Source: Thermoplasmata archaeon
GTDB lineage: Archaea > Thermoplasmatota > Thermoplasmata > Lutacidiplasmatales > UBA184
Assembly (NCBI GenBank): GCA_022750055.1
Contig: JAKIWL010000001.1
Location: 434,001-498,000 of the forward strand
Direction: 5' to 3'
DNA length: 64,000 bases
Shown here: positions 25,436-48,304 of the stretch, one piece after another
Numbering within the stretch: position 1 is the stretch's first letter
Layout of the letters: the number at the start of each line of letters is the position of its first letter
Notes under the pieces: model-generated
Seen by the model: only the letters and a program-made list of their open reading frames with translations
The model's database searches: none
Told to the model about the DNA's origin: nothing
Translations under genes and position numbers: made by a program

Positions 25436-25777
25436 ATGGATAAGGGGTCGGAGGGCCAGGGACCGGTGAGCCGCGCCGTCGAAAATGCCTTCACGAAGGT
25501 CTACGGGGAGGATGCGGTGACGGCCTTGATCGCGCTGAAGGTGGAGACCTCCGAGGCGGACAACGTCGCCTCCGAGGTCAGCCGATTCCCCGAGGTGCAG
25601 GATGTCTTCCTCGTCACCGGCGATACCGACATCTTCCTGAAGGTGCGTTTCCCTCAGTACGACGAGCTGAAGGAGTTCGTCCTTCACCGACTTCCCGGCG
25701 TGCGGGGCATTCGAGAATCGAAGACGCTCCTGGTCGTCACCGCCTACAAGGAAGGCGGCGAGGCGCACCGTTCGTGA
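25436..25777 (+). CDS. Stand-alone Lrp/AsnC-type ligand-binding (RAM) domain protein
   Basis: The 113-residue protein lacks a DNA-binding domain. It has the RAM/AsnC ligand domain pattern: TALIALKVETSEADNVASEV, FPEVQDVFLVTGDTDIFLKV, LKEFVLHRLPGVRGIRESKTLLVV. Such single-domain proteins form octamer-like rings, bind amino acids and may modulate partner Lrp proteins. The stop overlaps the GTG start of the next gene (GTGA), so the two are coupled. Confidence 0.85.
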   Translation: MDKGSEGQGPVSRAVENAFTKVYGEDAVTALIALKVETSEADNVASEVSRFPEVQDVFLVTGDTDIFLKVRFPQYDELKEFVLHRLPGVRGIRESKTLLVVTAYKEGGEAHRS

Positions 25778-26094
25778 GTGATGTCCCTCCGGCCTCCCCG
25801 GCATCGAGCGCCTCGAGCCCGACTCCGGAGGATTCGCTTCGTGACCCATCGAGGTGGGTGGGAGCCATGTTGACCTCCCTGGGGGAGCTCTCCGAAGACC
25901 CGAGCCTCCCGAGGAACATTCGGCGCGGAGCCCTGGCCGCGAAGGAGGAGTTGGGACGACGGGGGACCGCCGTCGACCTGCGGATCGCTGGCGCCGTCTA
26001 TCGTCTCGACGAACTGGCGAACGACCCGAACCTTCCGACGCACGGTCGGACCGCGATCTGGTCGATCATCTCGCGATTGGAGAGCCTGCATTGA
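25774..26094 (+). CDS. UPF0147 family protein
   Basis: The 106-residue protein carries the UPF0147 core: LGELSEDPSLPRNIRRGALAAKEEL, then AVDLRIAGAVYRLDELANDPNLP and HGRTAIWSIISRLESL. This is an all-helical family found across archaea with no settled function. About 30 Ser/Pro-rich residues precede the core. GTG start 25774 overlaps the RAM-protein stop. The tRNA-Lys gene follows 60 nt on. Confidence 0.88.
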   Translation: MSDVPPASPASSASSPTPEDSLRDPSRWVGAMLTSLGELSEDPSLPRNIRRGALAAKEELGRRGTAVDLRIAGAVYRLDELANDPNLPTHGRTAIWSIISRLESLH

Positions 26095-26113
26095 ACCGTT
26101 CGGTGCGAAACCT

Positions 26114-26120
26114 GAAATAC
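26114..26120 (+). promoter_or_regulatory. TATA box for the tRNA-Lys gene
   Basis: GAAATAC is the only AT-rich stretch in the 60-nt gap before the tRNA. It predicts transcription from about 26144, some 10 nt before the mature 5' end. Confidence 0.5.
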
Positions 26121-26174
26121 GCTGCCCTCGTCGGAGCGCACGGGAACTGGGGCGGGCCCGTAGCTCAGGTAGGT

Positions 26175-26205
26175 TGGCCGGTCGGTCCCACCGCTGGCCC
26201 TACAA
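26175..26205 (+). other. tRNA-Lys intron 1, in the D-loop (position 20/21), 31 nt
   Basis: The exon bases GTAG (26169-26172) pair with intron CTAC (26200-26203) to form the 4-bp central helix. The 5' bulge is GTT (26173-26175, cut GT|T) and the 3' bulge AAA (26204-26206, cut AA|A). The intron interior folds into GGCC/GGCC (26176-26179 with 26196-26199) and CGGT/ACCG (26183-26186 with 26190-26193) closed by a CCC loop. Removing the 31 nt restores a canonical D-arm. The outer helix is the D-stem, separated by two exon bases, so the motif is of the relaxed type. Confidence 0.88.
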
Positions 26206-26244
26206 AGAGCATCTGGCTTTTAACCAGGTGGTCGGGGGTTCGAA

Positions 26245-26279
26245 CGGGAGGCGCCCGCATCGGGCACCTTCCCAGAAAT
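26245..26279 (+). other. tRNA-Lys intron 2, in the T-loop (position 59/60), 35 nt
   Basis: The outer helix is the T-stem (26234-26238 with 26281-26285). The central helix pairs TTCG (26239-26242) with AGAA (26274-26277), three pairs and one G-A mismatch. The bulges are AAC (26243-26245, cut AA|C) and ATT (26278-26280, cut AT|T). The intron interior forms GGGAGG/CCTTCCC (26246-26251 with 26267-26273) and GCCCG/CGGGC with a CAT loop. Splicing restores the T-loop TTCGAAT. No other boundary keeps both the loop length and the stem. Confidence 0.88.
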
Positions 26280-26314
26280 TCCCCCCGGGCCCGTTCGGTT
26301 TCCGAGGTGTCAGG

Positions 26315-26662
26315 ATGAGTCCCCGTAAGGTCACCCCGAAGAGGCCGTCGAAGAAGGCCAAGGCCGAGGCGGTCGCCGCGGCCCGCGCCGCTCGTCCGTT
26401 CACGGCCCATCTCCTGGTCCCGCCCCATGAACTGTTGAGCGAGGCCGAGACGCTCGCCACCATCCAGACCCTCGGCGCGACCATCGAGCGGCTCCCGAAG
26501 ATCGTCATCGGAGACCCCGGCCTGAAGACCGACCCGAAGTACCTCGCGGCCCGCGAGGCGAAAGAACCTCTCGCCGGCCGCCTCGTGCGAGTCCGCCGGC
26601 CTAGCGCAACGGCCGGGGAGGCGATCGCCTACCGGGTGCTCGTCTCGACCTACGGGGAGTGA
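26315..26662 (+). CDS. rpoH: DNA-directed RNA polymerase subunit H (Rpb5 homologue)
   Basis: From ATG 26315 the protein has 115 residues. The C-terminal 80 match RpoH: FTAHLLVPPHELLSEAE, LPKIVIGDPGLK, REPLAGRLVRVRRPS-like segments and AIAYRVLVSTYGE. The N-terminal 30 residues are a Lys/Ala-rich basic extension (KVTPKRPSKKAKAEAV) longer than in most archaea. GAGGTG 5 nt upstream is a good ribosome site for this 16S 3' end. It opens the RNA polymerase operon. Confidence 0.93.
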   Translation: MSPRKVTPKRPSKKAKAEAVAAARAARPFTAHLLVPPHELLSEAETLATIQTLGATIERLPKIVIGDPGLKTDPKYLAAREAKEPLAGRLVRVRRPSATAGEAIAYRVLVSTYGE

Positions 26663-26668
26663 GATCCG

Positions 26669-29600
26669 ATGCGCGAGATCGTCGACGCTTTCTTCCGGGA
26701 GCGGTCCATCGTCAACCATCACCTAGCGAGTTTCAACGACTTCCTCCCGACCAACGACAACCCGAATTCGCGGATGCAGCGGATCGTGGACGAGTCCCGC
26801 GTGAGCGAGGACTCGACCGAACGGGGCATCATCCGCCTCGACGTCCAGAAGACGAAGAGCTCGATCTTCGTGCGCGTCGGCCGACGCCGAGACCCGCGCA
26901 CGGGTCAGGTCTCCTCGACGGCCGAGCCGACGATCTTTGTCGGCCAGCCGTTCGTGAAGGAACCGGTCGGCTCCAAACCCACGCTCACCCCGATGGAGGC
27001 GCGGCTCCGCAACCTGACCTACCAGGCACCGATCTACCTGCGCGTCACCGTAGTGGAGAACGGCGTCGAGCGGGCTCCGGAGGAGGTCCACATCGGCGAC
27101 CTCCCGATCATGGTCAAGAGTCGGCAGTGCAACCTCGCGCAGGCGAACATCGAGCGCGATAGCGGCGTGCCCCTCTCCCCCGAAGAGTACCGCGCGAAGC
27201 TCGTCGAGTACCTGGAGGACCCGCTCGACCCAGGCGGCTACGCGATCATCGGCGGGACCGAACGGGTGATGATGAGCCTAGAGGACCTCGCGCCGAACCG
27301 GATCTTCGCCGAGTTCAACGAGCGCTACGGGACCCCGGTTGAGAGCGCGAAGGTGTTCAGCCAGCGCGGCGGGTACCGTTCGCTCACCGTCGTCGAGAAG
27401 AAGAAGGACGGGATCCTGCAGGTGTCCGTCCCCACTGCCTCCGGTCAGATCCCCCTTTCCATCCTGATGAAGGCCCTCGGGATGAAGAACGATGAGGAGA
27501 TCTTCCAGGCCGTCCTGGGCGAGCTCCTCCCGCTGGACGAGCCGTTCGTCCAGACGATGAAGCACCTCTTGAACGTCAACCTAGAGGAGTGCGTCTCGAA
27601 GAAGCTCTACCCGCCGGAAGGGATCCTGACGACCGAGGACGCGCTCCTCCACCTCGAGAAGAAGTTCGCGACCGGCCAGGCGAAGGAGTACCGCCAGCGA
27701 AAGGTCGACGGGATCTTGGACCGATCCCTGCTCCCTCACCTGGGCGACACGAAGGGGGACCGACTGAAGAAGGCCCTGTACCTCGCGCGCATGGCCCGTA
27801 CTGTCCTCGAGCTGCATCTGAAGGTTCGGGGCGAGGACGACAAGGACCACTACGCGAACAAGCGGCTCAAGCTCGCCGGCGACCTCATGGAGGACCTCTT
27901 CCGGGTCGCGTTCACGCTCCTTCTCAAGGACCTGAAGTATCAACTCGAGCGCTCGTTCGCCCGGAAGAAGGACCTTCGGATCGCGAGCGCGATCCGACCG
28001 GATCTGCTGACGCAGCGACTCGTACACGCGCTCGCCACGGGCAACTGGGTCGGGGGCCGGGCCGGCGTGAGCCAGGTGCTCGACCGGACCAGCCACATGT
28101 CGGCGATCTCCCACCTCCGGCGCGTTACGAGCCCGCTCACCCGCAGTCAGCCGCACTTCGAAGCCCGCGATCTGCACCCGACCCAGTGGGGTCGACTGTG
28201 CCCCAACGAGACGCCCGAAGGGCAGAACTGCGGCCTCGTCAAGAACTACGCCCTGTGCGTCGACGTCTCGGAAGGGGCCGACGAGGAGGAGGTCACCCTG
28301 ATCCTCCGTGACCTGAACACCCGGGAGATCGGCCCGGAGGTCTTCCAGGAAGGGAACCAGCCCAGGGGCAAGCGCGCCGCTCGAGTCTACGTCAACGGCA
28401 ACCTGATCGGACTCCACTCCTCCCCCCTCGAGCTCGTCAAGGAGATCCGGGAGCGGCGCCGCTCCGGCACCCTGTCGCCGTCGCTGGGCGAGCGGACCTA
28501 CGAGCTCAATGTCCGCTACGACGGCGAGATGAACGAGGTCATCGTCCACTGTGACCCGGGCCGCCTGAGGCGCCCGCTCATCGTCGTGAAGGACGGGGTC
28601 TCCCGAGTGAGCCGGGCCGACCTCGACGACCTCGGCCAGGGGACACTGTCGTTCTCCGACCTCATCCACGCCGGCAAGGTCGAGTGGCTCGACGCCGAAG
28701 AGGAGGAGGACTCGCTCATCGCCGTCGACGCCTTTGAGCAGCCCGAACGCTGCCCGAAGTGTGAGCGCGCGCTCTCCCGCGGCGACGTCCGCTGGGTCTC
28801 GGCCGGCGAGAAGCGGGAGGTCGCGCAGCTCAAGTGCGGTCGCTGCAGCGAGGAGTTCCCTGCGAAGCTCCTGCTCGGCCCGAAGGACACCCACCTCGAG
28901 ATCGACACGAACCTCATGCTGGGCGTCTGCACCGGCCTCATCCCGTATCCGGAACACAATTCGACGCCCCGCAACACGATGGGTTCCGGGATGGCCAAGC
29001 AGGCGCTCGGCGTCGAATCGGTGAACTACCGGCGCCGCCCCGATACCCGTAGCCACCTGCTACACTACCCCCAGGCGCCGCTCCTGCGGACGCAGACGAT
29101 GCGCTATGTCCACTTCACCGAACGCCCCGCCGGCCAGAACTTCGTCGTCGCGGTCCTCTCCTACGAGGGCTACAACATGCAAGATGCCCTCGTCTTCTCG
29201 AAAGCCGCGATCGACCGCGGCCTCGGCCGCTCCTCGTTCTTCCGAACGTACCGGGGCGAAGAGCGAAAGTATCCGGGGGGCCAGGAGGACAAGTTCGAGA
29301 TCCCCCGACCGGACGTGGCCGGTGCCCGCGTCGACACCTCCTACCGCAACCTCGGCGAAGATGGGCTCATCTTCCCCGAGCTCGAGGTCGTCGAAGGCGA
29401 CGTGCTGATCGGGAAGACCAGCCCCCCGAGGTTCCTCGAAGAGAAGACCGACCTCTTGACGCCCCAGAAGCGCCGCGAGACCTCGGTCACGGTGCGCTTC
29501 GGCGAGTCCGGCTGGGTCGACGGGGTGATCCTGACCGAAGGGGAGAATATCTCCAAGCTCGTCAAGGTCAAGGTTCGCAACCAGCGGGTCCCGGAGCTGG

Positions 29601-30343
29601 GGGACAAGTTCGCCTCCCGGCACGGCCAGAAGGGCGTCATCGGGCTCATCGTCCCGCAGGAGAACCTGCCGTTCACCCGCGACGGCGTCACCCCGGACCT
29701 GCTGATCAATCCGCACGCCATCCCCTCGAGGATGACGGTCGCCCACGTGCTCGAGATGCTCGGCGGCAAGGTCGGCTCGCTCGAGGGCCGGACGATCGAC
29801 GGGACGGCGTTCTCCGGGGAACGCGAGGAGGCGCTTAGGGAGTCGCTCAAGGCGCTCGGTTTCCACCCGTCGGGGCGCGAGACCCTCTACGACGGGATGA
29901 CCGGCCGCCGCCTCGAGGCGGAGATCTTCATCGGAGTGATCTACTACCAGAAGCTCCACCACATGGTCGCGGGCAAGATGCACATGCGCTCGCGCGGGCC
30001 GGTCCAGATCCTGACCCGTCAGCCCACGGAGGGACGCTCCCGGCAGGGCGGCCTTCGGTTCGGGGAGATGGAGCGCGACACCCTGATCGGCCACGGGGTG
30101 GCCATGGTCATCAAGGACCGGCTGCTCGACGAGTCGGACGGGACGGTCCAGTACGTCTGCGGGAACCCGGAGTGCGGGCACATCGCGATCCCGGATACCC
30201 GGGCCGGGTCGCTGCGCTGCCCGTCCTGCGGGAACACCTCCTCGATCTATCCGGTCGAGATGAGCTACTCGTTCAAGCTCCTCCTCGAGGAGCTGATCAG
30301 CCTGGGCGTGATCATGCGGCTCCAGCTCGAAGAGATGCGGTAG
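26669..30343 (+). CDS. rpoB: DNA-directed RNA polymerase subunit B (unsplit, B'+B'')
   Basis: The 1,224-residue protein covers both halves of the beta-like subunit in one chain, as in Thermoplasmata and Thermoproteota; methanogens and haloarchaea usually split it. Marks include [11 protein letters not shown] at the start, [20 protein letters not shown], the catalytic-side motif [12 protein letters not shown], and [12 protein letters not shown] zinc-binding insertion [15 protein letters not shown] lies near residue 700 and a C-terminal zinc site reads [15 protein letters not shown]. It begins 6 nt after rpoH and is followed by rpoA1. Confidence 0.98.
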
Positions 30344-36273: not shown

Positions 36274-37744
<1,471 letters not shown>

Positions 37745-46858: not shown

Positions 46859-48304
46859 GTGCTCCAACGGCCCTCGCTCCAGCGGATCGACGAATTCACC
46901 TACGAGATCCCCCGCTCGGAAGCGGAGGGGATGCGCGTGGCCGGTCGGCTCTACACGAGCGAGCGATTGCTTGCGGCCGCCGAGGGGGACCCGTCGCTCC
47001 AGCAGCTGAAGAACGTCGCCACCCTTCCCGGGATCTGCGGCCGCGCCTACGCCATGCCTGACATCCACTTCGGCTACGGGTTCCCGGTGGGTGGGGTCGC
47101 CGCGTTCGACCTGTCGGAGGGGGTCGTCTCCCCCGGTGGGATCGGCTACGACATCAACTGCGGGGTCCGCCTCCTGAAGACCCCGTTCCGCGTCGACGAG
47201 GTCAACGCGAGGCTGCGGCCCCTCGTGGACGCGCTCTACCGGGAGGTCCCGACCGGCGTGGGGTCGAAGGGCGGCGTCACCCTGACTCATGCCGATATGG
47301 AGGAGGTGCTCGCGGGCGGGTCGCGCTGGGCGGTCAGCCAGGGCCACGGCCGCCCCTCCGACCTGCCGGTCCAGGAGGAGGAGGGCCGCTTCGAGCGGGC
47401 CGACCCGTCGGCAGTGAGCGACGTCGCCAAGAAGCGGGGTCTGCGCCAGCTCGGCACGCTCGGTTCGGGCAACCACTTCCTCGAGGTCCAGGCGGTCGAC
47501 GAGCTGTTCTACCCGGAGTTCGCCGACGCGCTCGGCTTGCGTCCGGGCCTCGCCGTCGTGATGCTGCATACCGGATCGCGCGGCCTGGGCCACCAGGTCG
47601 CGACCGACTACATCCACGAGATGGACCGCTACCTGCTCAGCACGGGGGTCGAGCTCGTCGACCGCCAGCTCTCCTGCGCGCCCGTCGGCTCGGAGTCGGG
47701 CCAGCGTTACCTCTCGGCCATGGCGGCCGGGGCGAACTTCGCCTGGGCGAACCGCCAGCTCATCACGGAGGGGGTCCGGCGCGCGTTCGCTTCCGTGCTC
47801 GGTTCCGGGTCGGAGGAGATCGAGGTCGTCTACGACATCGCCCATAACATCGCCAAGCTCGAGGAGCACCGGGTCGACGGAGCCCCACGCCGGGTCCTCG
47901 TCCACCGCAAAGGGGCCACGCGGGCCTTCCCCGCCGGTCGGGAGGAGGTCCCGGAGGCGTACCGACGGTTCGGCCAACCCGTGCTGATCCCCGGAGACAT
48001 GGGCACGGCGAGCTACGTGCTCGTCGGCCTGCCGACCTCGCTAGATCGGTCGTTCGGGTCGTCCTGCCACGGGGCGGGCCGGCTGCTCTCGCGTCACGCG
48101 GCGGTGCGAAAGTTCCGCTACGAGGAGGTGACCCGCCACCTCGAGGGAAAGGGGATCGTCGTGCGCGCCGCCTCCCGGGAAGGCGTTACGGAGGAGGCGC
48201 CCGGGGCCTACAAGGACGTCGAGGAGGTGGTCCGCGTCGCCGAGGGCGCCGGACTCACCCGCCGCGTCGCGCGCCTTCGTCCGCTCGGGGTCGTGAAGGG
48301 GTGA
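46859..48304 (+). CDS. rtcB: RNA-splicing ligase RtcB
   Basis: The protein has 481 residues from GTG 46859; an in-frame TTG at 46847 would add four. It carries YAMPDIHFGYGFPVGGVAAF, GGIGYDINCGVRLL (metal Cys), LGSGNHFLEV, MLHTGSRGLGHQV, VVYDIAHNIAKLEEH and GSSCHGAGR, whose His is the guanylylated residue. It joins a 2',3'-cyclic phosphate or 3'-phosphate end to a 5'-OH end with GTP and manganese, so it ligates tRNA exons after splicing-endonuclease cuts. The interrupted tRNA-Lys in this window is a natural substrate. Its 3' end overlaps the sedolisin gene by 50 nt. Confidence 0.96.
   Translation: MLQRPSLQRIDEFTYEIPRSEAEGMRVAGRLYTSERLLAAAEGDPSLQQLKNVATLPGICGRAYAMPDIHFGYGFPVGGVAAFDLSEGVVSPGGIGYDINCGVRLLKTPFRVDEVNARLRPLVDALYREVPTGVGSKGGVTLTHADMEEVLAGGSRWAVSQGHGRPSDLPVQEEEGRFERADPSAVSDVAKKRGLRQLGTLGSGNHFLEVQAVDELFYPEFADALGLRPGLAVVMLHTGSRGLGHQVATDYIHEMDRYLLSTGVELVDRQLSCAPVGSESGQRYLSAMAAGANFAWANRQLITEGVRRAFASVLGSGSEEIEVVYDIAHNIAKLEEHRVDGAPRRVLVHRKGATRAFPAGREEVPEAYRRFGQPVLIPGDMGTASYVLVGLPTSLDRSFGSSCHGAGRLLSRHAAVRKFRYEEVTRHLEGKGIVVRAASREGVTEEAPGAYKDVEEVVRVAEGAGLTRRVARLRPLGVVKG

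Follow-up and report, generated by a model that had tools for sequence, protein, structure and literature searches.

Candidate D-loop and T-loop introns in a Thermoplasmata tRNA-Lys(UUU) gene that lies within an open reading frame

In the Crenarchaeota, including the Thermoproteales, and in the Nanoarchaeota, tRNA introns occur at positions that include 20/21 and 59/60, more than one to a gene, and are described as bounded by bulge-helix-bulge (BHB) or relaxed BHB motifs (PMC4090602, PMC8450103). Many noncanonical introns, several per gene, are likewise described in wet-soil metagenome assemblies of the Asgard groups Atabeyarchaeia and Freyarchaeia (PMC11291895). A different kind of precedent comes from the Alphaproteobacteria, in which a whole tRNA-Sec lies in the sense frame of selB and its end overlaps the next start (PMC8124441). 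Here we describe a tRNA-Lys(UUU) gene that has traits in common with each of these. It lies on a 64,000-nucleotide stretch of the assembly of a soil archaeon of the Thermoplasmata, order Lutacidiplasmatales (GenBank GCA_022750055.1, contig JAKIWL010000001.1, positions 434,001 to 498,000), which we call the window; positions below are those of the window, and the tRNA gene with its parts, the reading frame, and the protein genes given with positions are on its plus strand. The host differs from the Crenarchaeota and Nanoarchaeota in that it belongs to a Thermoplasmatota family, has a splicing endonuclease (EndA) of the alpha-prime type, and has position 59/60 as the dominant site. It differs from the Atabeyarchaeia and Freyarchaeia in phylum and in extent, with 18 of the 40 tRNA genes found being interrupted here versus 92 to 95% there. 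Whereas tRNA-Sec occupies the end of a known protein's gene, with introns unmentioned in the part of that account drawn on here, the archaeal tRNA-Lys has two introns and a small frame of its own. We consider it probable, at about three chances in four, that this is the sole Lys(UUU) gene detected in the genome, that both of its introns are cut by the alpha-prime EndA, that RtcB ligates the exons, and that the gene is enclosed in a frame bridging the UPF0147 and rpoH genes.

The precursor spans positions 26154 to 26293, an assignment that draws on the sequence, locus conservation, covariation, the predicted fold, and stem pairing. It can be read as a tRNA, with acceptor stem, D arm, anticodon arm (CTTTTAA, anticodon TTT at 26219 to 26221), and T arm, only after two insertions are removed, and both ARAGORN and Rfam (at the gathering score) miss the unspliced gene. 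The T-loop intron, at position 59/60, covers 26245 to 26279 and has the length of 35 nucleotides (nt) given in the earlier note that drew attention to this gene; its removal allows 12 of 12 acceptor and T-stem pairs to form. For the D-loop intron that note had proposed 26175 to 26205. A 5-bp helix flanked by 3-nt bulges gives 26176 to 26205 (30 nt), 1 nt away, and the exact cut remains uncertain by 1 to 2 nt, moving by that much under a strict 3-4-3 reading or when the 9-nt D-loop of tRNA-Lys(CUU) is matched. By inspection, removal of this intron restores a normal D-loop. The lowest-energy fold gives the D arm a GUAGG/CCUAC helix with a 3-nt bulge and a hairpin, and the T arm the helices GGGGG/CCCCC and UUC/GAA with a hairpin; the T-arm splice motif has 3-nt bulges. 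Both introns have predicted BHB-like splice sites, and the D-arm motif is classed as relaxed because its exon side includes an internal loop. The 4-bp helix between bulges that had been drawn for each insertion is recovered in the D arm in the form of a relaxed motif with 5 bp, and in the T arm only in part, with the 3-nt bulges present and three of the four pairs formed in the window.

Comparison with relatives supports the two introns. An RpoB query returned 74 Thermoplasmata-type loci, the nearest including "Candidatus Lutacidiplasma silvani," and 66 of these had DNA upstream of rpoB. The tRNA-Lys(UUU) gene precedes rpoH-rpoB in 66 of 66, and both introns are present in 64; the exceptions are L069, with the D-loop intron alone, and L089 (61% RpoB identity), with the T-loop intron alone. 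With the window included, 67 genes, 66 of them distinct, were aligned (alignment A1) and scored against a structure of 43 pairs that we specified. In the 66 distinct genes, 94.9% of cells pair, compared with 86.0% after shuffling, a control that ignores relatedness, and 56% when the structure is slid by one column, a control that keeps relatedness but favors a structure drawn from the same sequences. Two-sided changes number 236 cells versus 84 in the shuffled alignment. The exon-intron pair 18-48 is A-U in 34 genes and C-G in 31, and within the D region, which is 40 nt long in 66 of the 67 genes and stacks without gaps, column 5 in the exon and column 35 in the intron have a full bit of mutual information. 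At the D-loop site, 65 of 65 genes have a complete central helix; at the T-loop site, 60 of 65 form all four of its pairs. The exons are nearly fixed across the distinct genes; the D-loop intron (genes L041 to L114) is constant in length yet highly variable in sequence.

The covariation in 66 distinct genes and the conservation at one site uphold the earlier description of a tRNA-Lys(UUU) gene with D-loop and T-loop introns, and they support splicing of the predicted precursor at both. The same data bear on whether the gene might instead be a decayed tRNA copy, as its unreadability to ARAGORN and Rfam in its present state could suggest. A decayed copy is hard to reconcile with nearly fixed exons and covarying stems, and a second, intact Lys(UUU) gene, which the earlier note had named as the finding that would point to decay, was not found in the 94%-complete genome (1.52 Mb, 5 contigs), in which the other Lys gene found is an intact Lys(CUU) (L011). 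We regard decay as scarcely credible.

The gene is also not alone in its genome, as a survey of the other tRNA genes, which the earlier note had called for, makes clear. A search with RF00005 gave 38 matches, 32 of them over the cutoff, all of which were taken as tRNA genes by inspection; with Lys(UUU) and His the total is 40. Thirteen of these have insertions at position 59/60 in the T-loop, and in 13 of 13 removal yields 12 of 12 acceptor and T-stem pairs. The tRNAs concerned are Lys(UUU), Gly(UCC), Asn, Glu(CUC), Arg(UCG), Arg(UCU), Gln(CUG), Asp, Ala(GGC), Ser(GCU), Ser(GGA), Ser(CGA), and His. Insertions in the D-loop, identified by eye, occur in 3 of the 40 (Lys, initiator Met, and Arg(GCG)), and ARAGORN reports anticodon-loop introns in three (L020, L021, and L026), so that 15 of the 18 interrupted genes are interrupted outside the anticodon loop. 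The RF00005 and follow-up searches found no gene in this genome for tRNA-Trp, Ala(UGC), Leu(UAG), or the three Pro anticodons. A 3' end resembling CGGAAAC recurs among the T-loop introns of different tRNAs, which might mean intron transposition or recognition by EndA.

Similar introns are found elsewhere in the phylum. In "Ca. L. silvani," 11 of 35 parsed genes have a T-loop insertion, and the ten other than Lys all fall in isotypes that are interrupted in the window genome. The complete genome G210, of the same class, has T-loop insertions in 2 of 34 genes, and G127, of another class, in 5 of 30; for this comparison the T-insert column was used, as the anticodons are unreliable in some rows (e.g., L242, L203, and L264), and two rows (L234 and L280) remained unparsed. 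G210, which represents another family of the class, also has a tRNA-Thr(CGU) (L236) with its own insertion in the D-loop. When 156 genomes of the phylum were searched under strict filters with a model of the Lys gene, at least 149 gave a match. Among the loci that were read, with L161, L167, L171, L172, and L173 left out of the counts owing to the parser, both Lys introns occur in five of six sampled genomes of the window's family and four of four of f7; three f15 genomes, f30, and G007 have only the D-loop intron, and eight genomes of f10 and three of f31 have only the T-loop intron. In many further genomes the match is 74 nt long, whether to Lys(UUU) or to Lys(CUU). Six loci of f7, f10, and f15 likewise have the tRNA upstream of an rpoH-like gene, as judged by eye. 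Going by the reviews, to the extent drawn on here (PMC4090602), such introns are unexpected in the Thermoplasmatota, but they occur in several families of the phylum, and the window genome is therefore no oddity. A published study ran tRNAscan-SE on Lutacidiplasmatales genomes and lists tRNAs for 20 amino acids in one of them; the word "intron" is absent from its main text as searched (PMC9287336).

The enzyme that would cut these introns appears conventional, and the suggestion in the earlier note that the genome might encode an unusual EndA is not supported. A single EndA gene was found, with two PF02778 and two PF01974 domains in a single chain and the catalytic Y, H, and K retained in the second catalytic-type domain. 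Among its best PDB matches are 5x89, 1r0v, and 1a79, which we take, in part on the basis of PMC6379350, to be the Methanopyrus, Archaeoglobus, and Methanocaldococcus enzymes. Across the order, domain matches to EndA were found as two in 59 of 61 genomes, one in one genome, and none in another. When aligned against 3p1y, a chain 10 residues longer than 1r0v that is probably the graft of the Crenarchaea-specific loop described in PMC6379350, 35 of 35 EndA sequences lack the extra block and keep Y, H, and K. Of five further intron-bearing genomes outside the order, four show the same architecture, and G109 gave no match. On its sequence, the enzyme is of the ordinary two-unit alpha-prime type, predicted to lack the Crenarchaea-specific loop. 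A PF01974 search of the genome for an extra subunit gave one gene only, although a highly diverged beta subunit would escape it.

This combination of enzyme and substrates touches a disagreement in the literature, as far as the accounts cited go. In reviews, two-unit EndA accompanies rare, single, canonical introns in the Euryarchaeota (PMC4090602, PMC4033280), where each interrupted gene has one canonical intron (PMC4090602), and alpha-prime EndA is called narrow in specificity (PMC6379350, PMC12397907). Homodimeric EndA is also described as cutting bulge-helix-loop substrates (PMC8707768). The homodimeric enzymes of Archaeoglobus, Thermoplasma, and Ferroplasma resemble the one here in having a two-unit chain, the catalytic triad, and no specificity loop (PMC6379350, PMC8707768), but in these sources their genomes are not described as rich in D-loop or T-loop introns. 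Multi-intron, noncanonical tRNAs together with an alpha-prime EndA sit badly with the rule of a single canonical intron as reviewed. The introns of this genome suggest that restriction of alpha-prime EndA to canonical BHB substrates may not hold, and its tRNAs seem to fit the view of homodimer cutting in PMC8707768 better than the narrow one.

The lengths of the introns led to the reading frames. The Lys T-loop insert is 31, 34, 37, 40, or 43 nt long in 61 of 65 genes and the D-loop intron is constant in length; reading frames were therefore tested across the locus. A triplet frame accounts for steps of three but not for the total lack of length change in the D-loop intron. Frame 0 of the tRNA (GGG CCC GTA GCT CAG) is open across the gene, introns included, in 66 of 67 loci. 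In the window the frame comprises 75 codons (TTG to TGA, 26091 to 26318), encloses the entire tRNA gene, and overlaps both the UPF0147 stop and the rpoH start. The earlier note had not remarked on this frame. Its GTG start overlaps the UPF0147 stop as GTGA (TTGA in the window), and its TGA overlaps the rpoH start as ATGA. A separate search located the UPF0147 stop in 59 of 67 loci, of which 58 have it in phase and L069 does not, and a targeted search for an in-phase GTGA or TTGA found one in 63 of 63. Downstream, 63 of 67 loci have the overlap of frame stop and rpoH start, with ATG as the start in 53, GTG in 8, and CTG in 2; CTG (L081 and L113) is an uncommon start, and rpoH may start elsewhere in these. 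Two other kinds of frame were considered and rejected: an rpoH frame extended through the tRNA runs past the tRNA start without a stop in only 28 of 66 loci, and of the three antisense frames, one is open in 32 of 67 loci and the others in no locus.

The distance from the tRNA start to the rpoH start takes 14 values between 155 and 335 nt. On a quick tree from the first 540 residues of RpoB it has undergone at least 23 length changes, yet its phase, counted to rpoH with the frame of that gene fixed from the rpoH stop near rpoB, changes twice; the T-insert alone shows at least 15 length changes and 4 phase changes. In L055 and L068 the spacer compensates for an out-of-phase intron change: the reading frame of the 3' exon differs, yet the overlap of the stop with the rpoH start is preserved. 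The T-loop intron of tRNA-Asn, for which 48 of 61 genomes gave a match, served as a noncoding control; it is distributed as 27, 15, and 6 over the three length classes and does not keep phase.

One alternative holds that only the spliced tRNA is real and that the open frame is an untranslated by-product of G+C-rich sequence and a few inherited indels. Stops are indeed scarce in every intron frame (0 of 1,343 codons in frame 0 versus 16 of 2,757 in the other two), a TGA arises wherever an rpoH start ATG is followed by A, the frame has no codon-position signal, and the zero for the spacer is true by construction, since the spacer was defined by the same frame, which makes mod-3 counts of the spacer and of T-insert plus spacer circular. 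Nor do we rely on the leader, in which stops number 0 in frame 0 versus 118 and 36 in the others, a contrast inflated because the UPF0147 stop and a TATA-like TGA fall in those frames in every leader. What such a by-product would not predict is the excess of length changes over phase changes, the compensated pairs in L055 and L068, and the absence of phase-keeping in the tRNA-Asn control; we find it doubtful. It is also conceivable that T-loop introns persist by concealing tRNA genes from mobile elements that integrate there and that phase-keeping is unrelated. Their presence in 13 tRNAs of the genome would suit this idea, but the phase-keeping of the Lys gene is left unexplained, and we judge it unlikely. 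Finally, the frame might encode a small protein with its own function, given that the frame and both overlaps are retained in 63 of 67 loci. However, substitutions are spread evenly over codon positions (leader 147/185/165, D-intron 66/61/66, T-intron 97/113/121, and spacer 89/65/71), L055 and L068 read the 3' exon in a different frame, and the 75-codon product has no Pfam match, all of which makes a functional protein quite improbable. With no excess at third positions, the frame rather than the peptide seems to be kept.

The frame is most simply read as a probable translated bridge for termination-reinitiation. The transcript would fold into two BHB-like sites, one in the T arm, with the GGGGG/CCCCC stem and a central helix UUC(G) formed with the 3' end of the intron between 3-nt bulges, and one in the D arm, where the helix GUAGG/CCUAC would pair exon with intron 3' end. 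The alpha-prime EndA would cut both sites and RtcB would join the three exons, roles that we infer from the enzyme families. In most of the window's family the same DNA would form part of a message, with the frame running from the UPF0147 stop across the unspliced pre-tRNA to the rpoH start; ribosomes ending UPF0147 may restart there, traverse the tRNA region, and restart at rpoH, in which case the peptide sequence itself would hardly matter. Archaeal termination-reinitiation is described at overlaps of the same ATGA type (PMC6728339, PMC10666635), although the bridge here, unlike in those cases as described, would cross a structured tRNA precursor. A bridge would serve such reinitiation because coupling at overlapping archaeal genes is described as nearly lost at gaps of about 20 nt (PMC10666635), so that the tRNA gene could hardly be passed otherwise. 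Use as mRNA and processing as tRNA may then be alternative fates of one RNA. We tentatively extend this to a possibility that we hold at somewhat less than even odds, namely that the two uses are exclusive, with ribosomes reading the unspliced precursor while untranslated copies fold and are processed into tRNA-Lys by EndA, RNase P, and RNase Z. The fates would compete and tie RNA polymerase subunit synthesis to the supply of tRNA-Lys, and the introns would be held to triplet phase by the message that retains them.

Several observations weigh against the interpretation of a spliced tRNA within a translated bridge. The T-loop central helix in the window forms only three of four pairs, with a G.A mismatch, and the window is among the five exceptions noted above; 8 of the 13 T-loop introns in the genome also have three central pairs only, with a purine-purine mismatch beside the 5' bulge. 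ARAGORN accepts 5 of the 13 unspliced genes (Glu, Arg(UCG), Arg(UCU), Gln, and His) as tRNAs, because the intron start mimics the 3' side, and these are weaker cases. The narrow specificity ascribed to the alpha-prime type in the accounts cited speaks against efficient cutting in the D arm. The frame is absent or out of phase in L043 and L064, where phase is lost, in L069 and L089, which are otherwise arranged, and in G004, and it is missing in six inspected loci of other families; it is therefore a feature of part of the window's family. There is no signal of amino acid conservation and no third-position excess in 39 close, overlapping pairs. The RpoB tree is a rough one, and the P values (a rough binomial value of 1e-8 for the tRNA-to-rpoH distance and a Fisher value of 2e-6 for 61 of 65 Lys versus 27 of 48 Asn introns in one length class, kinship uncorrected) treat events or loci as independent.

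If the interpretation is true, a twice-interrupted tRNA gene inside a phase-kept frame would be a new arrangement and would show how coding constraint can act on tRNA introns. A search of an open-access literature library brought up no account of such a nested, intron-bearing tRNA that we recognized, the nearest being tRNA-Sec in selB (PMC8124441). A Thermoplasmatota family with many T-loop and some D-loop introns and a loop-free alpha-prime EndA would also make the disagreement over EndA specificity directly testable.

The neighborhood of the gene is compact. Upstream lie a protein with an Lrp/AsnC ligand-binding domain (25436 to 25777; PF01037), whose stop overlaps the UPF0147 start (GTGA), and the UPF0147 protein (25774 to 26094; PF03685, E value 1.8e-23). 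The sequence ctgaaatacg at 26112 to 26121, judged by eye, is a possible TATA box of a tRNA promoter; it is found in the leaders of many relatives and is replaced in some. Downstream are rpoH (26315 to 26662; Rpb5 C-terminal domain, PF01191, E value 1.6e-12) and rpoB (26669 to 30343; seven Rpb2 domains), and the presumed exon ligase RtcB (PF01139) lies at 47003 to 48301. Apart from the 16S rRNA, no Rfam family reaches its gathering score within the window; the archaeal 16S rRNA gene is complete, at 36275 to 37742. In the chain from 25436 to 26662, made up of the Lrp-like gene, UPF0147, the tRNA-bearing frame, and rpoH, every overlap between a stop and the next start is 4 nt long.
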